From Pseudonocardiales bacterium (GTDB lineage: Bacteria; Actinomycetota; Actinomycetes; Mycobacteriales; QHCD01), in assembly GCA_003244255.1 (NCBI GenBank), contig QHCD01000029.1:1-64000 (forward strand): a stretch of 64,000 bases of DNA. Reading direction: 5' to 3'. The position numbers and the translations under genes are program-made. This document shows, piece after piece, positions 42,267-49,331 of this stretch (positions are counted from its first letter, which is position 1; each line of letters begins with the position of its first letter). Below the pieces are notes generated by a model. That model did not search any database. It saw nothing but the letters and a program-made list of their open reading frames with translations, and was not told where the DNA came from.

Positions 42267-42989
42267 TCACGTCGATGCGCCGCGCCCCGCGCCCCCAAGC
42301 AGCGACCGGACGCTGCGGGCGAGACCGATGCCCGCGCGCAGCCCGGGTGCCGCCACGGGCTCGCCAAACCCGTTCTCGACAGGCAGCACGCCGGCCCAGA
42401 CATCGAGCAGCGCGTCGGGTGAACCGTCGTCGGTCGGCGGCCCGGTGCGGACCTTGGCCGAGGCGGCGTCGATCGCCATCGCCAGCACCGTGGAGGCCTG
42501 CAACTCGGACGCCGACGGCGGGCGGACCTCGTTCCAGCGGCCGGGGACGACGGCGTTGGTGAAGGCTTCGAACGCCGCCAGCTTCGACTCCGGTTCGTCG
42601 ATGACGCGGAACGTGCCGAGCAGCATGACCGACCGATAGTTGGCGGAGTGCTCGAACGCCGAGCGGGCCAGCACCAGTCCGTCGAGCGCGGTGACGGTGA
42701 CGCAGGCCGGTGCCGCGTCGCCCAGCGCCCGCATCGCGCGGCTGGCCGACGAACCGTGCACGTAGACGTCGTCGCCGATGCGGGCGTGCAGCATGGGCAC
42801 GCAGTAGGGCTGGCCGGCGTCGACGAACGCGACATGAGCGAGCGGCTGCGCGTCGAGCACCGCGTCGATCGTCGTCCGGTCGTACCGGCCGCGCTGCGGT
42901 GATCGCCGCACCCGGGTCTGCACGAGACCGAGTATGTGCCGGCCGGCGGACTCGTGGAAGCTCCCCGCCCGGTCGGCCCCGCCTGTCAT
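42267..42989 (-). CDS. Pyridoxamine 5'-phosphate oxidase-family (FMN-binding) protein
   Basis: A 240-aa protein: VLDAQPLAHVAFVDAGQPYC, VPMLHARIGDDVYVHGSSAS, CVTVTALDGLVLARSAFEHS, ANYRSVMLLGTFRVIDEPES. This is the split-barrel flavin-binding fold of small PNPOx-like proteins that act on unidentified substrates or store FMN/F420. The start at 42989 overlaps the end of pnkp by four bases, so it is the last gene of the hen1-pnkp operon. Confidence 0.75.
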   Translation of the reverse strand: MTGGADRAGSFHESAGRHILGLVQTRVRRSPQRGRYDRTTIDAVLDAQPLAHVAFVDAGQPYCVPMLHARIGDDVYVHGSSASRAMRALGDAAPACVTVTALDGLVLARSAFEHSANYRSVMLLGTFRVIDEPESKLAAFEAFTNAVVPGRWNEVRPPSASELQASTVLAMAIDAASAKVRTGPPTDDGSPDALLDVWAGVLPVENGFGEPVAAPGLRAGIGLARSVRSLLGGAGRGAST

Positions 42990-45559
42990 AGACGCGGGTC
43001 GACGGGCTCGGACTCCAGAGCGAGGACGGCGGAGACGCATTCGTGCACCCGCCAGAGCGGTTCGCCGCGGGCGACCCGGTCGAGGGCTTCCAGGCCGAGG
43101 CCGTACTCGCGGAGCGCGAGCGAACGCTTGTGCGCCAGGCCGCGCTGGCGGAGTCGTTCGAGGTTCGCCGGTTCGGTGTAGTCGGGGCCGTAGATGAGCC
43201 GCAGGTACTCGCGCCCGCGAACCTTGAGTCCCGGCGAGATCATTCCCTTGGGCCCGCGCAGGAAGTTCGCAGCCGGCTTGACCACCATGCCCTCGCCGCC
43301 CGCGGCCGTGAGCCGCTCCCACCACCCGGTCGCGTCGGCGATCGACGCGGCGTCGGTGGTGTCGACGTCGACCCGCCGGGTCGGCGCGATCAACTCGGCA
43401 TCGGCGGCGACGAGCCGATCGGCGACGTCGAGATGCCAGGTGTGCATGCGATCGTGGTACGTCGTGGAATCGGAAGCGAGCAGCTGGAACGGCGCGAGCC
43501 GTACGCCGGCGAGGCCGTCGGTGGGCCAGCAGTACCGCCGATACGCCTGGGTGAACGCCGTCGCGTTGGCCGAGCGGGCACGGGTGCGCGCCAGCAGGTC
43601 CCCGACGTCGCGGCCCGCTGCGGCTGCCCGTTCCAGCACCGACATCGCGACCGGCAACGCAGCGCGTGCCGCGGCGCCCACCGCCGCGTACTGGTCACGC
43701 AGCAACGGCTCGGCCTTCGCGCTCCACGGCAACAACTCGGCGTCGAACAGCAGCCAGGACGCGTCGAGCTCGTCGAGCAGTCCTGCGCTCTGGGCGGCGA
43801 CCCGCACTCGCTCGACTATCTGCGCGGTGAGAGGCGGCGGGAAGAATGGCCGGCCGGTGCGCGTCCACAGCGCACCGGCCGCGTCGCCTGGAGCTCCGAA
43901 GCGCGCCCGCGCGGCGTCGAGCGAGCGGCAGACCAGGAGCACCGCCCGGGAGCCCATGTGCTTCTCCTCGCACACCACGGCAGGAACGCCGTCGGCTCGA
44001 TAGGAGTCGAACGCCTGCTCGGGATGCTCGAGCAGGTCGGCGCGGGTCGAGGTGGCGACGGGACTCATGGTCGGCGGCAGGTAGAGCAGCCAGCGCGGAT
44101 CGATGGCGAACCGGCTCATCACCTCGAGCGCGGCGGCGGCATTGGCCCGAGCCACGCCGACCCGCTTCTGGTACGCCGTCTCCAGCACCCGCTTTCCGGT
44201 GACGTCCCGAATGTCGAGGACGTCGGGCTCGCGGCGGGCCGGCTCCGCGGCGTCGGGATTGACGGGAAACGGCTTGGCCGGCTGGTAGTAGACGCGGGCG
44301 GCGTGGACCGAGACGACCTCGCGCTCGGGGTATCTCAGCGCGCTCAGGAAACCGCCGAAGACGCAGCCGGTGTCGATGCAGAGGGTGTTGTTGACCCACT
44401 CCGGCGCCGGCACCGGAGTGTGGCCGTAGACGACGATCGCGCGACCGCGGTACTCGTTCGCCCACGGGTAACGCACCGGCAGCCCGTACTCGTCGGTCTC
44501 GCCCGTGCTCTGCCCGTACAGGCAGAACTCCCGCACCCGGCCCGATGCGCGACCGTGATAGCGCTCGATGAGACCGGCGTGGGAGACCACGAGCGCGCCG
44601 CCGTCGAAGACGTAGTGGCTCACCAGAGAGTCGAGGAAACGCTCTACGTCGCCGCGGAACTCGGCCGGCTCGGCGTCGAGCTGTGCCATCGTCTCGGCCA
44701 GGCCGTGGGTGTGCCGAACGTCGCGGCCGCGCAGCGCGCGGAGCAGCTTGTTCTCGTGATTGCCCGGCACGCAGAAGGCTGTGCCCGCGGCCACCATCCC
44801 CATCACCAGGCGGAGCACGCCCGCGGTGTCCGGTCCGCGGTCGACGAGGTCGCCGACAAAAACCGCGCGGCGCCAGGGATTCCGGGCACCGACCGCGCGA
44901 CCGGCGTCGTCGCGCTCGACCGCGTATCCCAGCTTGCCCAGCAGCTCCTCGAGCTCGGAGCGACAGCCGTGGACGTCGCCGATGACGTCGAAGGGACCCG
45001 GCTCGTGGCGCAGGTCGTTGAACAACCGGGTGCGGACGACGGCGACGCGCGCGATCTCGTCTTCGGTTCTCAGGACGTGCACATAGCGGAAACCCTCGCG
45101 CTGCAAGCCTTTCAGGCCGCGGTGGAGCTGTCCACGCTGACGACGAAGCACGTGCACACCGAAGTCGCGATCGGGCCGGACCGCGTTCCGCGCGGCGCAG
45201 ACGTTCTCCGGCAGGTCGAGCACGATCGCCACCGGCAGGACGTCGTGTTCGCGTGCCAGCGCGACGAGCTCGCGCCGAGCCTCGGGCTGAACGTTGGTCG
45301 CGTCGATCACGGTCAACCGTCCCGCGGCCAGCCGCTTGTCGACGATGAAGTTCAGCAGTTCGAATGCTTCTGGCGTTGCCGACTGGTCGTTCTCGTCGTC
45401 GGCGACCAGACCGCGGCACAGGTCCGAGGAGATGACCTCGGTGGGCTTGAAGTGCGCCCGCCCGAACGTCGACTTGCCCGATCCCGATATCCCGACCAGC
45501 ACGACGAGGCTCAGCTCCGGGACCGGCACCTCACGGGCCGGGATCGGTTCGATGCTCAT
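42986..45559 (-). CDS. pnkp: Polynucleotide kinase-phosphatase-ligase (bacterial Pnkp)
   Basis: An 857-aa three-domain RNA-repair enzyme. N-terminal kinase with P-loop VGISGSGKSTFG at about residue 23. Central metallophosphatase with DVIGDVHGC (about 193), VFVGDLVDRGPDTA (about 240), PGNHENK, VVSHAG and VVYGHTPVPAPEW. C-terminal adenylyltransferase/ligase with the lysine nucleotidylation motif EEKHMGSRAVL at about residue 531. Pnkp heals both ends of cleaved RNA and, with Hen1, adds a 2'-O-methyl mark and reseals it. All key motifs are intact. It is downstream of hen1 with a repeat-encoded mini-cistron between. Confidence 0.95.
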   Translation of the reverse strand: MSIEPIPAREVPVPELSLVVLVGISGSGKSTFGRAHFKPTEVISSDLCRGLVADDENDQSATPEAFELLNFIVDKRLAAGRLTVIDATNVQPEARRELVALAREHDVLPVAIVLDLPENVCAARNAVRPDRDFGVHVLRRQRGQLHRGLKGLQREGFRYVHVLRTEDEIARVAVVRTRLFNDLRHEPGPFDVIGDVHGCRSELEELLGKLGYAVERDDAGRAVGARNPWRRAVFVGDLVDRGPDTAGVLRLVMGMVAAGTAFCVPGNHENKLLRALRGRDVRHTHGLAETMAQLDAEPAEFRGDVERFLDSLVSHYVFDGGALVVSHAGLIERYHGRASGRVREFCLYGQSTGETDEYGLPVRYPWANEYRGRAIVVYGHTPVPAPEWVNNTLCIDTGCVFGGFLSALRYPEREVVSVHAARVYYQPAKPFPVNPDAAEPARREPDVLDIRDVTGKRVLETAYQKRVGVARANAAAALEVMSRFAIDPRWLLYLPPTMSPVATSTRADLLEHPEQAFDSYRADGVPAVVCEEKHMGSRAVLLVCRSLDAARARFGAPGDAAGALWTRTGRPFFPPPLTAQIVERVRVAAQSAGLLDELDASWLLFDAELLPWSAKAEPLLRDQYAAVGAAARAALPVAMSVLERAAAAGRDVGDLLARTRARSANATAFTQAYRRYCWPTDGLAGVRLAPFQLLASDSTTYHDRMHTWHLDVADRLVAADAELIAPTRRVDVDTTDAASIADATGWWERLTAAGGEGMVVKPAANFLRGPKGMISPGLKVRGREYLRLIYGPDYTEPANLERLRQRGLAHKRSLALREYGLGLEALDRVARGEPLWRVHECVSAVLALESEPVDPRL

Positions 45560-45639
45560 GCCGCCTCGGCGGTGCTCACTGCCGCCTCGGCGGTAAGGAT
45601 TGCCTCGGCGGTGCTCACTGCCGCCTCGGCGGTGCTCAT
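45556..45639 (-). CDS. 27-aa repeat mini-cistron coupling hen1 to pnkp
   Basis: The minus-strand frame from ATG 45639 to TGA 45556-45558 encodes four near-identical units: MSTAEAA, VSTAEAI, LTAEAA, VSTAEAA. Its ATG overlaps the hen1 stop (ATGA) and its TGA overlaps the pnkp ATG (ATGA). The units look like duplicated copies of an ancestral ATGAGC junction, now giving a relay of coupled start/stop sites. Whether the peptide has a role is unknown; ribosome re-initiation on the path to pnkp is the likeliest effect. Confidence 0.55.
   Translation of the reverse strand: MSTAEAAVSTAEAILTAEAAVSTAEAA
45556..45639. repeat. Tandem 18/21-base repeats at the hen1-pnkp junction
   Basis: On the plus strand the unit is GCCGCCTCGGCGGTGCTCACT, present about four times with one 18-base variant and one unit altered to end GTAAGGATT. 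Each contains the self-complementary CCGCCTCGGCGG. Units are multiples of three, so copy-number change would not shift frame. Confidence 0.85.
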
Positions 45640-47066
45640 CCAGTCACCTTGCCGAAGATCGCCAGCTGGGTCGGCGATCCGACCTCGACGTCGTCGGTGC
45701 CGACGGGCAGGAACCGCACCTGGTACCCGTACTCGCTGGCGACCCGCTCCGCCCACGACCTGAACTCGGCGCGGGTCCACTCGAAGCGATGGTCCCGGTG
45801 CCGCAAGGTGGCGGGCGGCAATGACTCGAAGCGGACGTTGTGCTCGGCGTTCGGCGTCGTCACGAGCACGTTGACCGGTGCAGCGTAGCCGAACACACTG
45901 CGCTCCAGCGCGCCGAGTCGCGGCGGGTCGACGTGCTCGATCACCTCCATCAGCACGGCGGAATCGAGACCGGCGAGCCGGTCGTCGCGGTATGTGAGCG
46001 AGGACTGGAATACGTCGACCCGCGCGCGCTGCTGCTCGGTCATGGTGTCCAACCGAAGCCTGCGGGCGGCAATCTGCAGGGTGCGCGCGGACACGTCGAC
46101 GGCCACGACGTGCTCGATCTGTCGGTCTGCAAGGAGATCCCGCACGAGCAACCCTTCGCCGCAGCCGAAGTCACCGATCCTGCGTGCACCGGACGCGCGC
46201 ACCGCGGCCAGCACGGCGCCGCGTCGCTGTTCGGCCAGCGGCGTCGACCTATCCGGCGTGGCGCACTCGACGGCATTGTGAAGCTGGTCCAGCTGATCGG
46301 CATTGTCCAGCTGGTCGGCGTCGGTGTCGTCGATCTCGGCGAGGCGGGCCAGCGCGGACTGGGTGAACTCCCGTTGGTGCGTGAGGTACCGGCTACTGAT
46401 CATCTCCTTCTCCGGATGCGTGGCCAGCCAGCTGCCGCCAGCGCGGATCAACTTGTCGATCTCGTCGCTGCTCACCCAGTAGTGCTTGGCGTCGTCGAGC
46501 ACGGGCAGCAGGACGTAGAGCTGGTTGAGCGCGTCGGCCAGGCGGAGCCGGCCGGTGAGGTGGACGTCGACGTAGCGCGAGTCGCCCCATTGCGGGATCT
46601 CCGGGTCCAGCGGGCCGGCAGAGGCGTCGACGCTCCACCCGAGCGGCGCGAACACCCGTCGCACGAGGTCGGGGCCGCCGCAACACGGGACTGCCGCGGC
46701 GTGGATCTGTAGTGGCAGCGGCGATGCGGCCAGTTCTGACCGGGCGTTGCACCGCCCGGTCAGCGCCGTGCGGAACGCCTCCTTGAGCGCCATCGCCAAC
46801 ATGCTCGATGACGCGTACGGGCGGTCGTTGACGTACTGCCCGAGCGCGAAGGCGTCGCCGCCGTGACCGCTGCGGCGGCGGACAAGCCCGATCGGATCGA
46901 CCTCCAGCAGCAGCGCCGCCGTGCAGCGCACCGCCGTCGCCTCGGGATAGAACACGTGCGCCTGGCCCACCGAGACGTCGAACGACTGCACCCGGCCCGG
47001 GTGTTTGTGCAGCAGGTAGCCCAGATCGCTGGCCGGTTCGTGTGTCGTGGTGATGGTCAGGAGCAC
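45636..47066 (-). CDS. hen1: 3'-terminal RNA ribose 2'-O-methyltransferase Hen1
   Basis: A 476-aa protein. The N-terminal Hen1-N domain starts LLTITTTHEPASDLGYLLHK, then HPGRVQSFDVSVGQAHVFYP. The C-terminal methyltransferase has the SAM motif RIGDFGCGEGLLVRDLL, and the metal/active-site motif VLMEVIEHVDPPRL (about residue 372) with a second His set in HRDHRFEWTRAEF. It methylates the 3'-terminal ribose of damaged RNA before ligation by Pnkp, protecting it from renewed attack. GTG 47066 is the start. It is followed by the mini-cistron and pnkp. Confidence 0.93.
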   Translation of the reverse strand: MLLTITTTHEPASDLGYLLHKHPGRVQSFDVSVGQAHVFYPEATAVRCTAALLLEVDPIGLVRRRSGHGGDAFALGQYVNDRPYASSSMLAMALKEAFRTALTGRCNARSELAASPLPLQIHAAAVPCCGGPDLVRRVFAPLGWSVDASAGPLDPEIPQWGDSRYVDVHLTGRLRLADALNQLYVLLPVLDDAKHYWVSSDEIDKLIRAGGSWLATHPEKEMISSRYLTHQREFTQSALARLAEIDDTDADQLDNADQLDQLHNAVECATPDRSTPLAEQRRGAVLAAVRASGARRIGDFGCGEGLLVRDLLADRQIEHVVAVDVSARTLQIAARRLRLDTMTEQQRARVDVFQSSLTYRDDRLAGLDSAVLMEVIEHVDPPRLGALERSVFGYAAPVNVLVTTPNAEHNVRFESLPPATLRHRDHRFEWTRAEFRSWAERVASEYGYQVRFLPVGTDDVEVGSPTQLAIFGKVTG

Positions 47067-47072
47067 GATCGC

Positions 47073-47592
47073 TCATTCTCGCCCACCGGGCGCGTGCAGT
47101 CTGTCCTGGGTGCGCGACCGGTCGGTGAGGTCGGTGCGGGGCGGGGCGGGGCGGGGCACGGCCGGGGTTGTCGATCGCGACGGGGAACGGAGTCGCGCCG
47201 CCGAAGCTGCTGGCCACCAGCAGGCCGATGTCGTCGGCGACGGTGCCGACGGCGTCGATCGCCTGCGCCAGCACCGGCGCCGTCAGCCCGACGGCGCTGA
47301 TCGTCTGCGAGACCACGACGAGGTCGCCGGCCAGCCACAGCGATGCGCTCAGCGCGCGGCGCTGGATCTCGTTGAGCTCCCGCAGCAGCTTCGCCGACGA
47401 CTTGCAGCCGTCCGCGGCGTGGGCGAACACGCCGACCATGGGCATCTCCAGGGGCATGATCCGCACCCAGCACGCCGCCGAGCCGTGCCGGAACGGATAG
47501 TCGCCGTCGGCATCCTCGCAGACGTGCTCGACGCCCCACAGATCCTGCAACAGCCGCTCGACGTGCGAGCGCACCCACATCAACTCGGTCAT
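47073..47592 (-). CDS. YbjN-domain protein with repeat-dependent C-terminus
   Basis: From ATG 47592 the first about 145 residues are a YbjN/T3SS-chaperone-like fold: MWVRSHVERLLQDLWGVEHV, WVRIMPLEMPMVGVFAHAAD, LLRELNEIQRRALSASLWLA and LLVASSFGGATPFPVAI. It then enters a (GGGGC)4 tract and, in the present frame, runs 670 bases into hen1 (stop at 46393). Gain of one 5-base unit would end it at 47073-47075, just before hen1; loss of one would end it just inside the hen1 start. The coordinates given are the expected normal gene. Role unknown; first gene of the hen1 operon. Confidence 0.6.
47138..47157. repeat. (GGGGC)4 pentanucleotide repeat inside the YbjN-like gene
   Basis: Four perfect GGGGC units on the plus strand (CCCCG-type on the coding strand). 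A 5-base unit not divisible by three in a coding region is a classic slippage site. Four G-tracts could also form a G-quadruplex on the template-complement strand. Confidence 0.85.
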
Positions 47593-47690
47593 CTCATCTC
47601 CCGGTTTCCGCTCGAAGTCTCGCATCGGGGTACGACAATTCCCGGGCAGCCGATTGGTCGCGCACCACCTGCGCACGGGGAGAGGACGCG

Positions 47691-49331
47691 ATGCCGATCC
47701 TGCGGCCCGAGCAGCCGAAGTTCGCCAACGGCGCGGAACGGCAGGTGTGGCGGGCGTTGCGCACCCAGCTCGCCCGCAACGACCTGCTGATGTCCGGCCT
47801 GCGCGTCACCGATCGGAGGAAGGACCACGAGGCCGACGTCGTCGTCGTCATGCCCGGCAGCGGCATCGTCGTAGCGGAGGTCAAGGGCGGCAGCGTGTGG
47901 CGAGACGGCGGCCGCTGGCGCCAGTACCGCGGTGGAAAGGACGTCCCCATCGAGCCCGTGGAGCAGGCACGTGGTGCGCGATACGCGCTGCGCAACTACG
48001 TCGAGACCGACCCGCGGTGGCGATCATCGCGCCGTACTCGGGTGCGGTGGGCACACGCCGTCGTGCTCCCGAACACGGAGCTGTCGGATGAATTCGCCGC
48101 GCCGGACTGCCCGCGCTGGATGGTCGTCGACAAGAACCAGCTCTCCGACGTCGCCGGCCTGCTGCGGGACGTCCCGGCGGCCCAGGAGACCGGAAACCGC
48201 GCCCCGACCGACGACGACGTTGCCCTCATCGCCGAGATCCTGCAGGGTCGGGGACAGTCCCAGCAGGACGTGGTCGCGGTGGCGCGCGAGCATGAGGCCG
48301 AGGTGCAGCGGCTCACCCAGGAGCAGGCGGTGATCCTCGGCGCGATCCGGCTGCTGAACCGGGTCGAGGTGCGCGGCGGTGCGGGCAGCGGCAAGACCTG
48401 GCTGGCAGTCGAACAGGCCCGACGGCTGGCACGCGACGGGCAGCGAGTCGCGTTGCTGTGCTATTCGCGCGGGCTTGCGGCGTTCCTGCGCAAGCAGGTC
48501 GGCGGGCTGGCGGCGAACCAGCGGCCGGCATGGGTGGGGGAGTTCCACAGCCTCGGGCACCAGTGGGGAGCGGCCAGGGGCTCGGACGACGACAGCGACT
48601 ACTGGGAGAACCGGCTCCCTGTGGAGATGCTCGCCAGGGCGCGAGCGCTCGATGACGCCGATCGCTACGACGCCGTCGTCATCGACGAGGCCCAGGACTT
48701 TGCCGATTCCTGGTGGCCGGTGCTGCTGGCGGCGTTGCGGGACGAGGAGAACGGCGGGCTGTACGTCTTCAGCGACGAGGGACAACGGGTGTTCGCACGC
48801 TACGGCCAGCCGCCGGTCCCGCTGGTGCCGCTGGTGCTGGACGACAACCTGCGCAACACCCGGCAGATCGCCGCGACGTTCAACTCGTTGACACCGATCC
48901 GCATGCGGCTGGCCGGGGTGGACGGGCCGGCGGTGCGGTTCGTGTCCTGCGGCACCGAGGACGCGCTCGGCGTCGGCGACGACCAGGTCGAGCTCCTGCT
49001 CGAGCAGGGGTGGCGCCCCGGCGACGTCGCGCTGCTGACCACGGGCAGCCGGCACCCGGAACAGGCCGAGCGCCAGCAGGGCGGCCAGGACGCGTACTGG
49101 GCATCGTTCTGGGACGACGACCAGGCGTTCTACGGCCACGTGCTGGGCTTCAAGGGCCTCGAACGACGGGTCGTGGTGCTCGTCGTCAACGACACGAAGG
49201 TCTCCGACCGGGCCCGGGAACGCCTTTACGTAGGGCTCTCTCGCGCGCGAGACCAGCTGGTGGTCTGCGGTGACGCCGCGATGATCCGCGAGATGGCCGA
49301 CGACGCCGTCCTGCGCGCGATCGGCGCGTGA
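47691..49331 (+). CDS. NERD-domain UvrD-like helicase
   Basis: A 546-aa protein. The N-terminal nuclease-related (NERD) domain contains HEADVVVVMPGSGIVVAEVK with the D...E-x-K nuclease signature. A superfamily 1 helicase follows: P-loop VRGGAGSGKTWLAVEQ (about residue 228), Walker B VVIDEAQDFADSW (about 329), LDDNLRNTRQIA, and motif VI YVGLSRARDQLVVC. Such proteins process DNA or RNA and occur in defence settings. It is divergent from the YbjN-hen1-pnkp operon, sharing a 98-base promoter gap. Intact. Confidence 0.85.
   Translation: MPILRPEQPKFANGAERQVWRALRTQLARNDLLMSGLRVTDRRKDHEADVVVVMPGSGIVVAEVKGGSVWRDGGRWRQYRGGKDVPIEPVEQARGARYALRNYVETDPRWRSSRRTRVRWAHAVVLPNTELSDEFAAPDCPRWMVVDKNQLSDVAGLLRDVPAAQETGNRAPTDDDVALIAEILQGRGQSQQDVVAVAREHEAEVQRLTQEQAVILGAIRLLNRVEVRGGAGSGKTWLAVEQARRLARDGQRVALLCYSRGLAAFLRKQVGGLAANQRPAWVGEFHSLGHQWGAARGSDDDSDYWENRLPVEMLARARALDDADRYDAVVIDEAQDFADSWWPVLLAALRDEENGGLYVFSDEGQRVFARYGQPPVPLVPLVLDDNLRNTRQIAATFNSLTPIRMRLAGVDGPAVRFVSCGTEDALGVGDDQVELLLEQGWRPGDVALLTTGSRHPEQAERQQGGQDAYWASFWDDDQAFYGHVLGFKGLERRVVVLVVNDTKVSDRARERLYVGLSRARDQLVVCGDAAMIREMADDAVLRAIGA

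Follow-up and report, generated by a model that had tools for sequence, protein, structure and literature searches.

We analysed a 64-kb stretch of DNA, called the window throughout. On its minus strand a ybjN-like gene lies directly upstream of hen1 and pnkp, and its 3' tail carries a run of GGGGC units just before hen1. The features around this junction are as follows:

42986..45559, minus strand: pnkp (kinase, phosphatase, ligase), PNKP_ligase match at E 2e-178
45636..47066, minus strand: hen1, Hen1_L (PF12623) plus a methyltransferase domain, E 1.2e-114
47136-47157: period-5 microsatellite, a perfect run, with (GGGGC)4 on the plus strand at 47138-47157
47179..47592, minus strand: conserved part of the ybjN-like gene, TY-Chap1 (PF22551) over residues 7-136, Pfam E 3.6e-25
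46393..47592, minus strand: the ybjN-like open reading frame with four units as present, 399 aa, stop at 46393-46395
47691..49331, plus strand: NERD-UvrD helicase gene, divergent from ybjN

The hen1 and pnkp genes are adjacent and co-oriented, and together they encode all the domains of a Pnkp-Hen1 operon (Hen1_L, methyltransferase, kinase, phosphatase and ligase). The GTG start of hen1 at 47066 is supported by the Pfam alignment, in which residue 1 of the protein is matched to position 1 of the Hen1_L model. The Pnkp-Hen1 RNA repair system, of which Pnkp1-Rnl-Hen1 is a relative (PMC4411300), likewise has hen1 and pnkp in tandem, and both there and in the window a Hen1_L plus methyltransferase protein is paired with a kinase-phosphatase-ligase Pnkp. 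The window locus differs in the ybjN-like gene directly upstream and in a duplicated spacer at the hen1-pnkp junction.

The ybjN-like gene starts at the ATG at 47592 on the minus strand, and homology backs this start as a relative (L004) likewise opens with MTELMWVRSHVE. Its product shares the PF22551 domain with the TY-Chap1/YbjN superfamily of chaperones (PMC9503650), the match scoring 88.6 bits against a curated cut-off of 27, and its relatives are 28-60 % identical. The tail beyond the domain is of another origin than the tails of these relatives. In twenty-five other family members the protein stops 6-27 residues past the domain, with tails that are unlike each other and often acidic; one outlier carries a second domain. 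In a separate case, one genome has two diverged TY-Chap1 genes (L005 and L015, G010:C58) on opposite strands, some 3 kb from each other.

Passages of the TY-Chap/YbjN paper describe TY-Chap1 in ADP-ribose-linked gene neighbourhoods, whereas the window gene adjoins a NERD-UvrD helicase and hen1; the passages found there do not mention NERD (PMC9503650). Two other genomes also have a ybjN relative adjoining a NERD-UvrD helicase (L163/L171, with a GTGA overlap, and L128/L177). The pairing of TY-Chap1 gene and helicase, found in these genomes and, in divergent orientation, in the window (47180-49331), is a possible two-gene defence-like unit. PADLOC models gave no match to ybjN, hen1 or pnkp, and the neighbouring helicase resembles the NERD-helicase and GajB-type models.

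The original prediction placed the repeat tract at the head of the RNA-repair operon. A profile search of the 1.5-4 kb flanks of about 100 other hen1 loci found ybjN next to hen1 at none of them, the sole marginal TY-Chap1 match being one of E 0.0036 near L097, and no hen1 was found beside the other ybjN relatives. The ybjN gene is thus not a conserved first gene of the Pnkp-Hen1 operon across these loci, and the description of the tract as the head of that operon is weak or wrong. The best reading is that the ybjN-hen1 junction is recent.

The tract itself is a true, uninterrupted microsatellite longer than chance predicts. No other pentanucleotide run in the window has three or more units, and among the 22 sites with at least two GGGGC units in the 3.02-Mb assembly only the ybjN-hen1 tract reaches three or more. 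Markov simulations of 3.02 Mb predict 0-0.2 pentanucleotide runs of any kind with at least four units and no (GGGGC)3 or longer. In the sense of ybjN and hen1, which are read from the minus strand, the run is (CCCCG)4.

Tracts of the identical unit occur elsewhere in actinobacteria. Among the genome itself and 60 relatives, 12 of the 61 have (GGGGC)4 or longer, with a maximum of about 10-12 units. A codon-score test places most of the examined tracts in apparently non-coding gaps, several of them between convergent coding signals, whereas the window tract lies between two genes of the same direction. In Micromonospora-like genomes (L135, L149 and L158) a repeated word, GCAAGATCGC or GATCTTGC, flanks the (GGGGC)n tracts, as if tract and word were part of a dispersed intergenic element. 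The genome sets searched yielded no congeneric genome, and the single same-family genome lacks both the ybjN-like gene and hen1. No sister copies were found in plasmids with a ybjN query or in viral contigs with a Hen1 query.

Because its G-rich strand is the template for ybjN and hen1, the tract could in principle fold into a G-quadruplex that slows RNA polymerase between the two genes. It is the only motif in the window with four GGGG tracts and short loops (47138-47167). Nevertheless, motifs with three-G tracts are present elsewhere in the window, the junction shows no conservation and similar tracts in relatives are at unrelated sites, and we consider this explanation very improbable indeed.

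The number of units determines where translation of ybjN ends. Across unit counts of 0 to 8, ybjN retains no stop of its own in any frame, and it is closed by one of the following two stops or runs on into hen1:

47073..47075, minus strand: TGA 6 nt upstream of the hen1 GTG, closing the frame of five (or two or eight) units
47057..47059, minus strand: TGA ending at hen1 base +10, within the conserved hen1 start (CTG ACC), closing the frame of three units

With four units (and equally with one or seven) ybjN overlaps hen1 out of frame for 674 nt. The product is 174 aa long with five units, as with two or eight, and 176 aa long with three, as with zero or six. The original prediction had described a frame-shifting repeat with three states, in which four units read through some 670 bases of hen1, five end ybjN just before the hen1 GTG and three end it just inside the hen1 start. 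All of this is borne out: the tract is real and the frame arithmetic is right. It had also proposed that slippage would alter the YbjN-like protein. This is true of the non-conserved tail past the TY-Chap1 domain, which changes with the frame; the chaperone domain ends before the tract and is therefore intact at every unit count.

We compared the hen1 starts of 102 distinct loci, the window's included. The stop at +10 that closes the 3-unit frame is found in 82 of the 102 homologues. It is widespread because hen1 opens with M-(L/F)-L-T, and CTG-AC(C/G) contains TGA. In 51 of the 102, the frame of hen1 that ybjN now reads (frame +2) stays open for 600 nt or more, and the 670-base overlap is accordingly not unusual in itself. 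Of 101 relatives, 46 combine the two properties. Since hen1 brings its own stops and its own open frame, a ybjN gene lacking its own stop would meet the same three outcomes at many hen1 genes of actinobacteria. The three-state geometry arises without selection for a switch and is not evidence of design. The same result weakens the suggestion of design in both alternative unit counts giving normal coupling, as both nearby stops are part of hen1's own sequence. A caution follows for similar loci: in high-GC genomes, a gene that loses its stop upstream of hen1 will automatically show the three-state pattern, because the hen1 start has stops in two frames and a long open third frame.

These results bear on the proposal that slippage between three, four and five units changes the ybjN tail and the expression of hen1-pnkp through termination-reinitiation or through ribosome occlusion of the hen1 start. 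The tract far exceeds chance, its frame arithmetic is right and a four-unit pentanucleotide has a known precedent. In the hsdM gene of H. influenzae, a phage-defence gene of a type I restriction-modification system, (GACGA)4 is reported to drop from four units to three at high rates (PMC2651432). Like the window tract it consists of four 5-bp units that shift the frame in a defence-linked context. The hsdM tract, however, truncates the enzyme itself and its variation among strains has been measured (PMC2651432), whereas in the window the TY-Chap1 domain is finished before the tract begins and the tract is known from one assembly. Cut-offs for such repeats differ between studies: four units are above the cut-off of 3 used in Haemophilus (PMC2651432) and below the at least five units demanded in Campylobacter and Neisseria studies. 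Against a switch we also count the domain left intact in all states, the origin of both nearby stops in hen1, the junction not found at the other hen1 loci examined and the equivalence of two of the three states, which leaves no clean on/off. We consider this mechanism improbable. Its extension to a contingency tract, where slippage would set whether ybjN ribosomes stop at or cross the hen1 start so that RNA-repair capacity varies among clonal cells, is less probable again. To our knowledge, were the switch established, no contingency locus linked to bacterial RNA repair would precede it. We also considered whether the unit count could sequester the hen1 start within the mRNA and rejected this, the predicted accessibility of the start being unchanged from 1 to 8 units.

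Whether hen1 depends on translation of ybjN at all is doubtful, because in most relatives a promoter-like element immediately precedes the hen1 GTG. A scan with promoter and terminator consensus sequences around the ybjN-hen1 junction returned nothing. Comparison of relatives reveals a bipartite element upstream of hen1, with CGGAAAAtcccTGG at about -48 and cAtACTcgg at about -13. The start-to-start spacing is 34-35 in 60 of the 63 loci having both parts, and the element is near-absent in control regions. In most actinobacterial loci (60-70 bp upstream region, L016-L125) roughly 8 nt separate the end of the proximal box from the GTG. The window has the corresponding box:

47072..47080, minus strand: -10-like box GAGAATGAG, directly upstream of the hen1 GTG, aligning with the proximal element cAtACTcgg

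This box scores 8.5 bits; the median among relatives is 8.4, and the 95th percentile of control regions is 4.6. The window's hen1 has thus kept the proximal box at typical strength; the distal half is absent. The TGA at -9 that closes the 5-unit frame lies inside this box, within GAGAATGA, and a relative whose Hen1 is 71 % identical and which has no ybjN upstream (L019) carries the identical GAGAATGA at the equal position before hen1.

In Mycobacterium, leaderless starts have a TANNNT centred 7-12 bp upstream of the start site, and GTG is usual (PMC3898074). The geometry of the hen1 element fits a leaderless start as mapped there (PMC3898074), and the bipartite element points to a hen1-pnkp transcript that is regulated and probably leaderless. 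The Shine-Dalgarno-like complementarity of hen1 in the window is -6.7 kcal/mol, ranking 20th of 102 and above average, but it lies far from the start. We infer that hen1 is probably expressed independently of ybjN in the window. The coupling idea is kept mainly because the distal promoter half is missing here: hen1 could rely more on ybjN transcription at this locus than elsewhere. The more useful by-product of this analysis is the promoter-like element conserved ahead of hen1 in actinobacteria.

We looked at codon use for signs of which frame, if any, is the genuine continuation of ybjN. Past the tract, the 4-unit frame has a wrong-frame codon composition (20-codon score of -8.8), while the 5-unit frame has the best codon use, with a 20-codon score of 4.5 that is within the range of true coding sequence. 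The signal leaves the ybjN frame for the 5-unit frame precisely at the tract. This hints at a real tail ending just before hen1 for which four units would be the off state, and it points to, but does not prove, five (or two) as the usual or true number of units. A best-of-three codon score at least as high is found in 23 % of hen1 upstream spacers, and the shuffle P is 0.18. As proof of the 5-unit frame codon use was rejected, being convincing against wrong-frame windows and non-significant against non-coding spacers.

The same signal is what one would expect if the unit count were wrong in this metagenome-derived assembly, with five or two units in reality and no long overlap. Coverage problems and polymerase errors concentrate in GC-only sequence, and the tract is of this kind. 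The source, moreover, looks like a draft MAG, in 93 contigs and 86 % complete. Yet a run of 22 nt is easily bridged by ordinary reads, and the codon signal is non-significant against the non-coding null. On balance we find a miscount rather unlikely.

The reading that we favour, with a probability of roughly 60 %, is that of a lineage-specific, probably near-neutral (GGGGC)n microsatellite in the non-conserved tail of ybjN, at a junction unique to this genome among those compared. The original 3' end of ybjN would have been lost as the genes joined or as the tract expanded, because no stop of its own is left in any frame from 0 to 8 units. Translation of ybjN would now terminate wherever hen1 sequence supplies a stop, which it does in two of the three frames, in the promoter-like box and in the first codons, the third frame being long open in half of the relatives. 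Transcription of hen1 would start from, or its translation would at least initiate at, its own conserved start region. A change in unit count would then have little effect on hen1-pnkp, altering only a dispensable ybjN tail, and the four-unit state would be either a tolerated slip or a sequencing or assembly miscount.

A second repeat is found at the other end of hen1. Of the 109 loci, counting the window's, in which the hen1 end could be read, 104 have the hen1 stop in an ATGA-type overlap, and in relatives this ATGA is usually the pnkp start itself. In the window (45553-45639, minus strand) the ATG at 45639 opens a 27-codon frame made of repeats of about 21 bp (MSTAEAAVSTAEAILTAEAAVSTAEAA) and ended by a stop, a TGA that overlaps the pnkp ATG at 45559. 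This mini-ORF has the look of a coupling junction duplicated in tandem and is possibly a duplicated coupling relay. It shows that the GGGGC tract is not the only case of repeat growth at the junctions of the hen1-pnkp operon.
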